From Argopecten irradians (taxonomy: Eukaryota; Mollusca; Bivalvia; Pectinida; Pectinidae), in the NCBI RefSeq assembly GCF_041381155.1, contig NC_091142.1, positions 38,985,604 to 39,049,603 of the forward strand: a DNA stretch of 64,000 nt, in the 5' to 3' direction. Under the pieces are notes generated by a model. It saw only the letters and a list, made by a program, of their open reading frames with translations. It did no database searches and was not told the origin of the DNA. Shown here in pieces: positions 45,001-52,946 of this stretch (position 1 is its first letter; every line of letters begins with the position of its first letter). Made by a program: the position numbers and the translations under genes.

Positions 45001-48000
45001 GCAAAGGTAATGTATGGGGGATACTTATATAATCTTTTATTTTAGAAAAAGAAATGTTTAGCAAAGGTAATGTATGGGGGATACTTATATAATCTTTTAT
45101 TTTAGAAAAAGAAATGTTTAGCAAAGGTAATGTATGGGGGATACTTATATTATCTTTTATTTTAGAAAAAGAAATGTTTAGCAAAGGTAATGTATGGGGG
45201 ATACTTATATTATCTTTTATTTTAGAAAAAGAAATGTTTAGCAAAGGTAATGTATGGGGGATACTTATATAATCTTTTATTTTAGAAAAAGAAATGTTTA
45301 GCAAAGGTAATGTATGGGGGATACTTATATTATCTTTTATTTTAGAAAAAGAAATGTTTAGCAAAGGTAATGTATGGGGGATACTTATATTATCTTTTAT
45401 TTTAGAAAAAGAAATGTTTAGCAAAGGTAATGTATGGGGGATACTTATATTATCTTTTATTTTAGAAAAAGAAATGTTTAGCAAAGGTAATGTATGGGGG
45501 ATACTTATATTATCTTTTATTTTAGAAAAAGAAATGTTAAGCAAAGGTAATGTATGGGGGATACTTATATTATCTTTTATTTTAGAAAAAGAAATGTTTA
45601 GCAAAGGTAATGTACGGGGGATATTATTATTATCTTTTATTTTAGAAAAAGAAATGTTTAGCAAAGGTACTGTACTGGGGATTACTCAGTATCATATATT
45701 ATCATGTAGTTCCAATACAGGTCATTTAGTACACGACCCTCTTATTATCAAATTCTACTCAAAGCTACAATAAACCAATTCATTTTAACCATCAAATTTA
45801 ACAAAAAAACAAAAAAACATTCGAGACCAAATAGAAAATGTCCTGCAGTAGCTGTGTACACTATGTAGATACTTAAGGAAGGGAGTATTAATATTAATGA
45901 AGTTCCCTGTATTTATAAATTCTTTGTATTGTTTGAAAATATCCCTCAATTCCTAGGCTGAAGGAGTGTACATTTTTATCAGTGGAATAGAATGACTACA
46001 CTGCAAACATTGAAAAAGTGGACACAATTATTATAAGCTTGGATACCTTTTCATTATATTTGCTGGAAAGGTGGAGCCACTGTCATCGGTGGAGATACTC
46101 TATATATAGATACTAACACTATGTTCACGGGGGAAGGTGGAGCCACTGTCGCCGGTGGAGATACCCTATATTTAGATACTTACACTACGTTTGCAAGGGA
46201 AGATGGAGCCACTGTCGTCAGTAGAGCCACCCTATATTTAGATACTTACACTACGTTTGCAGGGGAAGGTGGAGCCACTGTAATCGGTGGAGATACCCTA
46301 TATATAGATACTTACACTACGCGGAGGAAGGTGGAGCCACTGTCATCGGTGGAGATACCCTATATATAGATTCATCGGTGGAGATACCCTATATATAGAT
46401 ACTTACACTATGTTCGCGGGGGAAGGTGGAGCCACCGTCATCGGTGGAGATACCCTATATACTTACACTACGTTCGCGGGGGAAGGTGGAGCCACTGTCA
46501 TCGGTAGAGATACCCTGCAGACTGCTCTGGCTACTGGACTTGCTGCTGAGGTTACTACTGGGCATTGAATGCTGACTCGTCATACTACTAGATTTACTGG
46601 TGCTACTGTCTATATTGTCGTCATCCTGGAAAATAAAACAATGTATTATCAGATTCTACATGTCTCTCAGTGTGTCAACTTTTACAGAGGAACTTTTTAC
46701 AAAGACTGTAGATTAAACACACTCTAGCAGCATGCTATATGAACAATACATTCCGTGTCACAAATATATAATTGTTGCAGAGTTTGTTGTAAGGACTTAT
46801 TTCAAGAACTGAACATTGAACACTTTGCACAGGAATTGGAAAAGATGTTGGCCAAGACAAAAAGCTTGATAATAAGGTAAGACTCACAAATGGAAACATT
46901 GACAAGACTTTTCAATAAGTTATTTTCTTCTTTAAAATCAAATAGTATCCATGCACACAAAAAGATGAACAGTCATATTTTCATCCACAAAATAAATGTT
47001 AGAAAATGTGATAACCACAGTATAAACCAACGAAAAATACAACATCTTCTAAATTATTATTTTAATGTAAAATGGGAATGGAAACCATGCAAAAACGTCC
47101 ACAAAAACAATATTTGTATGCATGTAAAATTGGAATATCATAAACGACATTGACAAAGCAAAAATACACATCAGTTTGAAGCATTAAAACAATTCCATAT
47201 CAAATCAAAATAGTCTATTTGCTAAGGTTATGTGATAAAACAATATGTATACTTTAATTTTGGTTGCTTTATCACATGTCCTTAGTTTAACAAAGGATGG
47301 ACCAGTCAACAGAGGGAACATTTGGGTAACCTAAAGTGGATACTAATTCTGTGGTCATAGAATCTGAAGCCATGACAAAATCACACATATTACAACCTCA
47401 TCAATTAAACAATTAACAGCCAATCAGTGTCAGGGGCTCAAAACAGGAATAATTGTTCCATTAATATCAATGGCAGTGATTTTTCAGGGTATTTTGGGGA
47501 AAAAGTTTTTGTAACAAATTGGGAATTTTTAATCGCACAAAGAGCAGTTTTGGGGAAAAGTTTCCTATTACTGAACATGGTGTTATAGATGATTAGATAT
47601 TGTAAAACAGTAAACTGTTTCATTTTATCAAATGATGATGACCATCACAACAGCTTCAGAGTAGGTTGTTTTAGATTAAACAAAGAGGGGAGAGATTTTC
47701 GGGTTTTGTTTGTCTTTCAGAGATTTGATTTGGGAAATTTTCATTATAATTCGGAAAAAAGTTTGGGGGTTTGGCATTGGGAATGGGGTCGTTAATCGAC
47801 CCCAGTTATATAAGGAGAAAAATCACTGAATGGAATTTTCAAGTATTAGAATGCAAACTATTTTTAACAATTTCTGTACTTCCTGAACAAAGGTCATTTA
47901 GTTTACAATGGTTAACATATATACCTACTGGACAAAATATAGGTCACAATGGATATCTTCTGCACAGTTCTCATTTTACATTGGTTAACATCGATAATTT

Positions 48001-52946: not shown

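Follow-up and report, generated by a model that had tools for sequence, protein, structure and literature searches.

Tandem repeats that span exon-intron junctions have been described as "mirages" in the globin genes of lancelets (PMC3087553), under a name taken from earlier work on Adh3, for which that source gives Canestro 2002 as the founding paper, and further lancelet examples in PGBD5 and TnC are reported in PMC3902484. Their units measure 10 to 72 bp in Adh3, 150 to 160 bp in the globins, and 60 and 108 bp in PGBD5 (PMC3087553, PMC3902484), and some mirages, though not all, are reported to vary in length and to be somatically unstable. According to PMC3087553, the data on mirages suggest that regular splicing is undisturbed, and mirages are proposed there as a source of new introns; the same source refers to Rogers 1989, Zhuo 2007, and Gao and Lynch 2009 for intron gain by tandem duplication of AG/GT-bearing segments. 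Ordinary minisatellites are exemplified by the abalone TSSK1-like gene, in which a 27-bp unit of variable copy number lies within intron 3 (PMC6905558). Tandem repeats are reported as the largest repeat class in the scallops Chlamys farreri (11.3%) and Amusium pleuronectes (21.7%) (PMC5700196, PMC10225492), an abundance that provides sufficient background for scallop junction arrays. No report of mirages in molluscs was found among the titles and abstract beginnings searched, which is weak evidence, with subscription papers outside the search.

The window, that is, the whole 64-kb stretch of DNA analyzed here, lies on contig 9 of an 845,758,899-bp (846-Mb) scallop assembly and harbors a TAOK gene at 32.8 to 52.9 kb on the minus strand, for which a 17-exon model encodes 907 amino acids without stops. 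For the kinase part, an approximate query transcribed by eye matched Protein Data Bank chains of TAO3 and TAO2. Among the 120 proteins listed of 7235 matches, the closest to the model was P0001 (99% identity over its length), and the Pecten maximus and Mizuhopecten yessoensis proteins showed 97% and 95% identity, respectively, from which the host was recognized as a scallop. Considering that the 899 amino acids of P0001 are encoded on a contig of 5236 nt and the gene spans ∼20 kb, P0001 very likely represents a transcript. Only P0001 and P0076 were near-identical to TAOK among the listed matches, and most of the others came from other species and were little informative. Two donors separated by 24 nt are present at TAOK exon 8 (48771-48795), and forms of 899 and 907 amino acids both occur among the Mizuhopecten proteins. 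Moreover, three cassette exons were recognized in intron 9 via Mizuhopecten isoforms, namely, 9a and 9b (Table 1) and one at 40458-40490, the last with one residue changed relative to the Mizuhopecten isoform.

Tandem arrays copying splice junctions are present at TAOK exons 5, 7, and 9. Each of the three donor arrays lies in the intron following its exon and is built of a unit that comprises the exon's own end and 5' splice site, just as an earlier note made from the letters of this DNA had described; the longer units also include some intron. The ungapped match scores through these junctions are 108, 32, and 49, respectively. The acceptor array that the note had also placed at exon 7 is real as well, but weaker than was implied, since it has only 8 exonic and 9 intronic nucleotides in common with the real acceptor (score 17). 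The scan covered 38 TAOK junctions, the four junctions of the duplicated exons 13 and 14 being left out, and none of the others reached a score of 10. Matches between the junction arrays were at most 7 nt long at E 1 or better, so that the units are unrelated to each other and share only their position at a junction, which bears out another of the note's statements. In addition, at E 1e-3 none of the six TAOK units tested matched any other part of the window, and the one segment searched in the rest of the genome, from exon 5, matched only at the TAOK locus. The four further arrays listed in Table 1 do not copy a junction, two of them being purely intronic and two close to cassette exons.

Table 1. 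Exons and arrays of TAOK in the window, listed in the direction of the gene.
Feature	Position	Strand	Remarks
TAOK exon 5	50944..51093	-	final 54 nt (50944-50997) form the exonic share of the unit; protein continuity across the junction in P0001
Exon 5 donor array	50660..50943	-	four 71-nt copies (exon end plus 5' splice site); GT kept in 2/4
Exon 7 acceptor array	49657..50057 (array ∼49654-50057)	-	unit of 37 nt, repeated upstream of the real acceptor; 2/10 copies retain AG
TAOK exon 7	49481..49656	-	final 31 nt form the exonic share of the donor unit, first 8 nt that of the acceptor unit
Exon 7 donor array	49276..49480	-	five copies, each 27-46 nt long; 4/5 retain GT
39-nt array, intron 8	47949..48672	-	purely intronic
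TAOK exon 9	46467..46625	-	final 50 nt form the exonic share of the unit
Exon 9 donor array	46068..46466	-	five copies of 60-91 nt plus one partial; GT kept in 5/5
60-nt array, intron 9	44291..45680	-	23 copies; purely intronic
31-nt array	44048..44181	-	stops 11 nt short of cassette exon 9a (44004-44036); acceptor not copied
Two 26-nt copies	42314..42364	-	start at intron +3 behind cassette exon 9b (42367-42420); junction not copied

By their anatomical features, so far as these are testable, the TAOK arrays are members of a named kind, mirage minisatellites, and the earlier note was mistaken in stating that no named class existed (PMC3087553, PMC3902484). Their units span the exon-intron border with exonic parts of 8 to 54 nt, both 5' and 3' borders are affected (three donors and one acceptor in TAOK), and the splice signal survives in many, though not all, of the units, as in the lancelet mirages of Adh3, the globins BflGb6 and BflGb9, TnC, and PGBD5, where repeats span the border at 5' or 3' exon ends, AG/GT occurs in many units, and splicing is reported to be undisturbed. 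The scallop case differs from the lancelet ones in that the host is a bivalve, that four arrays occur in one gene, and that more than 20 copies occur at two acceptors of the gene sample described below. Intron gain by tandem duplication likewise copies splice signals in tandem; in the scallop, by contrast, the duplication lengthens an existing intron, and the P0001 alignment revealed no new spliced intron inside former exon sequence at exons 5, 7, and 9. Ordinary intronic minisatellites have unit length, divergence, tandem order, and density in the window in common with the junction arrays, from which they differ in that the junction units take in an exon end and its splice site.

Some traces of the history of the arrays are visible in their copies. 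A base change common to all four exon 5 copies is missing from the exon, indicating that the copies multiplied among themselves after the first duplication. The TAOK amino acids at residue 271, in exon 7, and residue 395, in exon 9, differ from those of both Pecten and Mizuhopecten, and the same states, read by eye, are also present in the array copies, suggesting that the arrays are young or have been homogenized with the exon.

As for the splice signals, GT is intact in 11/14 donor copies and AG in 2/10 acceptor copies of TAOK. Use of a decoy donor would introduce an in-frame stop 3 to 4 codons past the exon's own donor in all 13 cases examined. No decoy use was seen in P0001, where exons 5, 7, and 9 are all joined at their proximal sites, or in P0076 at exon 9; the protein alignment of P0001 revealed no sequence lost from or added to these exons, with the exon ends of the model in use in this record. 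Five marker peptides were likewise absent from the 120 proteins listed of the 7235 matches. Extra segments in Mizuhopecten isoforms had been considered as candidate decoy-made isoforms and turned out to be the three intron 9 cassette exons rather than array copies.

Junction copies were also sought elsewhere in this genome, in a sample of 60 exons of kinesin and myosin genes not chosen for arrays, by taking the 30 best of 130 kinesin and of 82 myosin exon matches from family searches of the genome. The loci, with 1500 nt on each side, fell into 38 gene clusters; they were turned to the gene strand, which agreed with the stop count in 55/60 loci, and splice sites were predicted, giving 120 junctions. 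A junction was counted if a copy spanning it was found within 1.4 kb at a score of at least 17, a threshold that none of 592 chance controls, in which sampled junctions were placed in the flanks of other loci, passed. Seven of the 120 junctions were spanned by a copy, comprising the donors of loci L015, L019, L062, and L066 and the acceptors of L026, L065, and L070. When read by eye, five proved to be tandem (L019, L026, L065, L066, and L070), one was lone, and one was doubtful. The lone copy, at L015, lies 344 nt away without repeat between and hence is not tandem; L062 was set aside, its predicted donor lying in an intronic repeat beyond the likely real donor. A 21-nt repeat at L054, which sits in a repeat array, had a score of 14 and stayed below the threshold. 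Another 16 exons within the sampled loci (32 junctions) showed no spanning copy. Overall, tandem junction copies occurred at 5/152 junctions, or ∼3% (95% interval, 1.1 to 7.5%), and they were divided into two donors (L019 and L066) and three acceptors (L026, L065, and L070). Mirages thus recur in unrelated genes of the scallop genome, and the recurrence that the earlier note had supposed from TAOK extends to these five kinesin and myosin junctions.

In two of these introns, intact decoy acceptors number more than 20. At L026 (kinesin, C2:23911759), a 61-nt unit occurs in 22 acceptor copies, all with AG, that end ∼150 nt before the real acceptor. L070 (myosin, C5:36365841) contains 24 full acceptor copies of a 60-nt unit, again all with AG, plus a 25th variant copy, and this array reaches the real exon; all counted copies at the two loci thus keep the signal. 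GT is kept in 10/11 donor copies at L019 (kinesin, C11:40323843), and the myosin exons L065 and L066 have one tandem junction copy each. The L070 array occupies positions 100-1490 in gene-strand locus coordinates, and a 294-amino-acid open frame is reported at its exon; splicing to a decoy acceptor might therefore preserve the reading frame there.

Whether junctions are preferred depends on how arrays are counted. Arrays occupy 20892 of 176340 bp in the sample flanks, and copies were found at 532 of 4739 background points there (11%; 61 of 4800 points drawn were dropped for low complexity), about twice the junction rate of 7/120 (Fisher p 0.075). When each point was weighted by 1/copy number so as to count origins, copies amounted to 2.35% of unique sequence, from which 2.82 of 120 junctions were expected and seven were seen (P 0.024). 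This excess weakened without the doubtful L062 (6/120, P 0.064), with the 32 further junctions (7/152, P 0.068), with both changes (6/152, P 0.149), and with tandem copies only, L015 being dropped as well (5/152, P 0.286); array origins were up to about 2.5-fold more frequent at sample junctions than in introns, a difference that was not significant on the stricter counts. No donor bias is seen in the sample, since half of the six accepted copies lie at donors and half at acceptors. An early pass using raw match ends in 30 kinesin loci (2/60 ends versus 80/600 flank points) was replaced by the predicted splice sites.

Within TAOK, 4/38 junctions (3/19 donors and 1/19 acceptors) lie in arrays, compared with 111/576 intronic points by the donor rule and 120/576 by the acceptor rule, and in the stretch of exons 5 to 9 the intronic figures rise to 130/366 and 151/366, respectively. 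Arrays occupy 3753 of 16903 bp in the TAOK introns and 1893 of 4194 bp in that stretch. Rotating the arrays along the gene placed a mean of 7.3 junctions in arrays versus four observed, with at least four in 91% of 2869 rotations. On TAOK with its arrays collapsed, by comparison, random seeding led to an expected 0.94 of 10 origins straddling a junction, whereas four were seen (P 0.008; P 0.057 with three junction origins). The opposite signs arise because rotation lets arrays swallow exons and seeding counts origins, and since TAOK was picked post hoc for its arrays, neither figure stands alone. Given the per-origin excess in both TAOK and the sample, a mild junction preference is possible and unproven. 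The enrichment at exon ends that the earlier note had proposed to check genome-wide found, on 120 to 152 sampled junctions, no support by area or in a donor bias, and at best P 0.024 per origin.

The most probable explanation is that mirage minisatellites reflect ordinary minisatellite birth in array-dense introns and are tolerated through use of the exon-proximal splice site. A segment of ∼35 to 70 bp that happened to straddle an exon end would have been duplicated in tandem, and its intron-side copies would then have multiplied by slippage or unequal exchange in the manner of minisatellites. We infer that the exon-resident copy is kept by coding selection and that the intronic copies would drift, in which case many should keep and some lose GT or AG, as is observed. 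Gene function would persist because splicing takes the site that adjoins the exon body, as the two near-identical protein records indicate, and exon definition may be the reason for this proximal choice. The process would be the same minisatellite birth that goes on generally in a scallop genome rich in tandem repeats, with the junction cases being the share that touches exon ends, and the evidence requires no function of the arrays themselves. Counted against this account are the per-origin excess of copies at junctions and the two TAOK arrays within 2 to 11 nt of a cassette exon border. It is unlikely, if worth considering, that exon-intron borders are targeted, for example by breaks or replication trouble, and seed tandem duplications more than the rest of the introns. 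The per-origin excesses in TAOK (4/10 arrays) and in the sample point in that direction; against them stand the selection of TAOK for its arrays, the loss of significance on stricter counts, and the lower coverage of junctions than of flanks by area. Of the earlier note's reading, recurrence in other genes is supported; a process or selection favoring junctions finds no support in area coverage, and per origin the excess ranges from P 0.024 to P 0.286.

Selection that keeps decoy splice sites, e.g., for slower splicing or for transcripts subject to nonsense-mediated decay, is very unlikely. It would accommodate the intact GT of most TAOK donor copies, the unbroken AG at L070 and L026, and the stop that follows every decoy-donor use examined in TAOK, yet young arrays would retain their sites without selection, GT is lost in 2/4 exon 5 copies and AG in 8/10 exon 7 acceptor copies, unit lengths and sequences are unrelated, and decoy use is absent from P0001 and P0076. 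Selection on decoys was rejected, the sites being neither consistently lost nor consistently retained. Most units of the three donor arrays differ mutually by several per cent, with indels as well in the arrays of exons 7 and 9, and similar arrays occur in other genes and chromosomes, all of which makes it highly improbable that the arrays are assembly errors, even though a near-exact 1441-bp copy of exons 13 and 14 that is missing from P0001 means that assembly or allelic duplication may have occurred in TAOK. This tandem duplication (34679-37531; 3 mismatches in ∼1.4 kb) keeps TAOK in frame, with 1053 amino acids and no stop, and its absence from P0001 suggests a recent duplication, an allelic one, or an assembly effect. 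Some mobile elements carry minisatellites, which would lend plausibility to units derived from such a transposable element. That origin is scarcely credible here, and for the units derived from exons it is contradicted by the data, as every donor unit has its match in the neighboring exon and the six TAOK units lack another match in the window.

The scallop arrays carry over to a bivalve what had been described in lancelets one gene at a time, and they provide an initial, approximate rate within a single genome. The combined claim that mirages are pervasive in scallops (∼3% of junctions, from 5/152 sampled, hence plausibly thousands genome-wide, some with more than 20 intact decoys beside the used site) and that junctions are their preferred birthplaces appears doubtful. 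Introns with more than 20 intact acceptor copies near the used one offer natural tests of site choice by the spliceosome and may serve as raw material for new exons or introns.

The rest of the window contains other features. A potassium-channel-like gene lies on the plus strand at 16597-26922, with BTB_2 within 16597-17541 and Ion_trans within 25690-26922, and between its two exons are two RVT_1 reverse transcriptase fragments in separate frames on the minus strand (19527-20601). A large nested array of 30/75-nt units (28541-30143) is located between this gene and TAOK.
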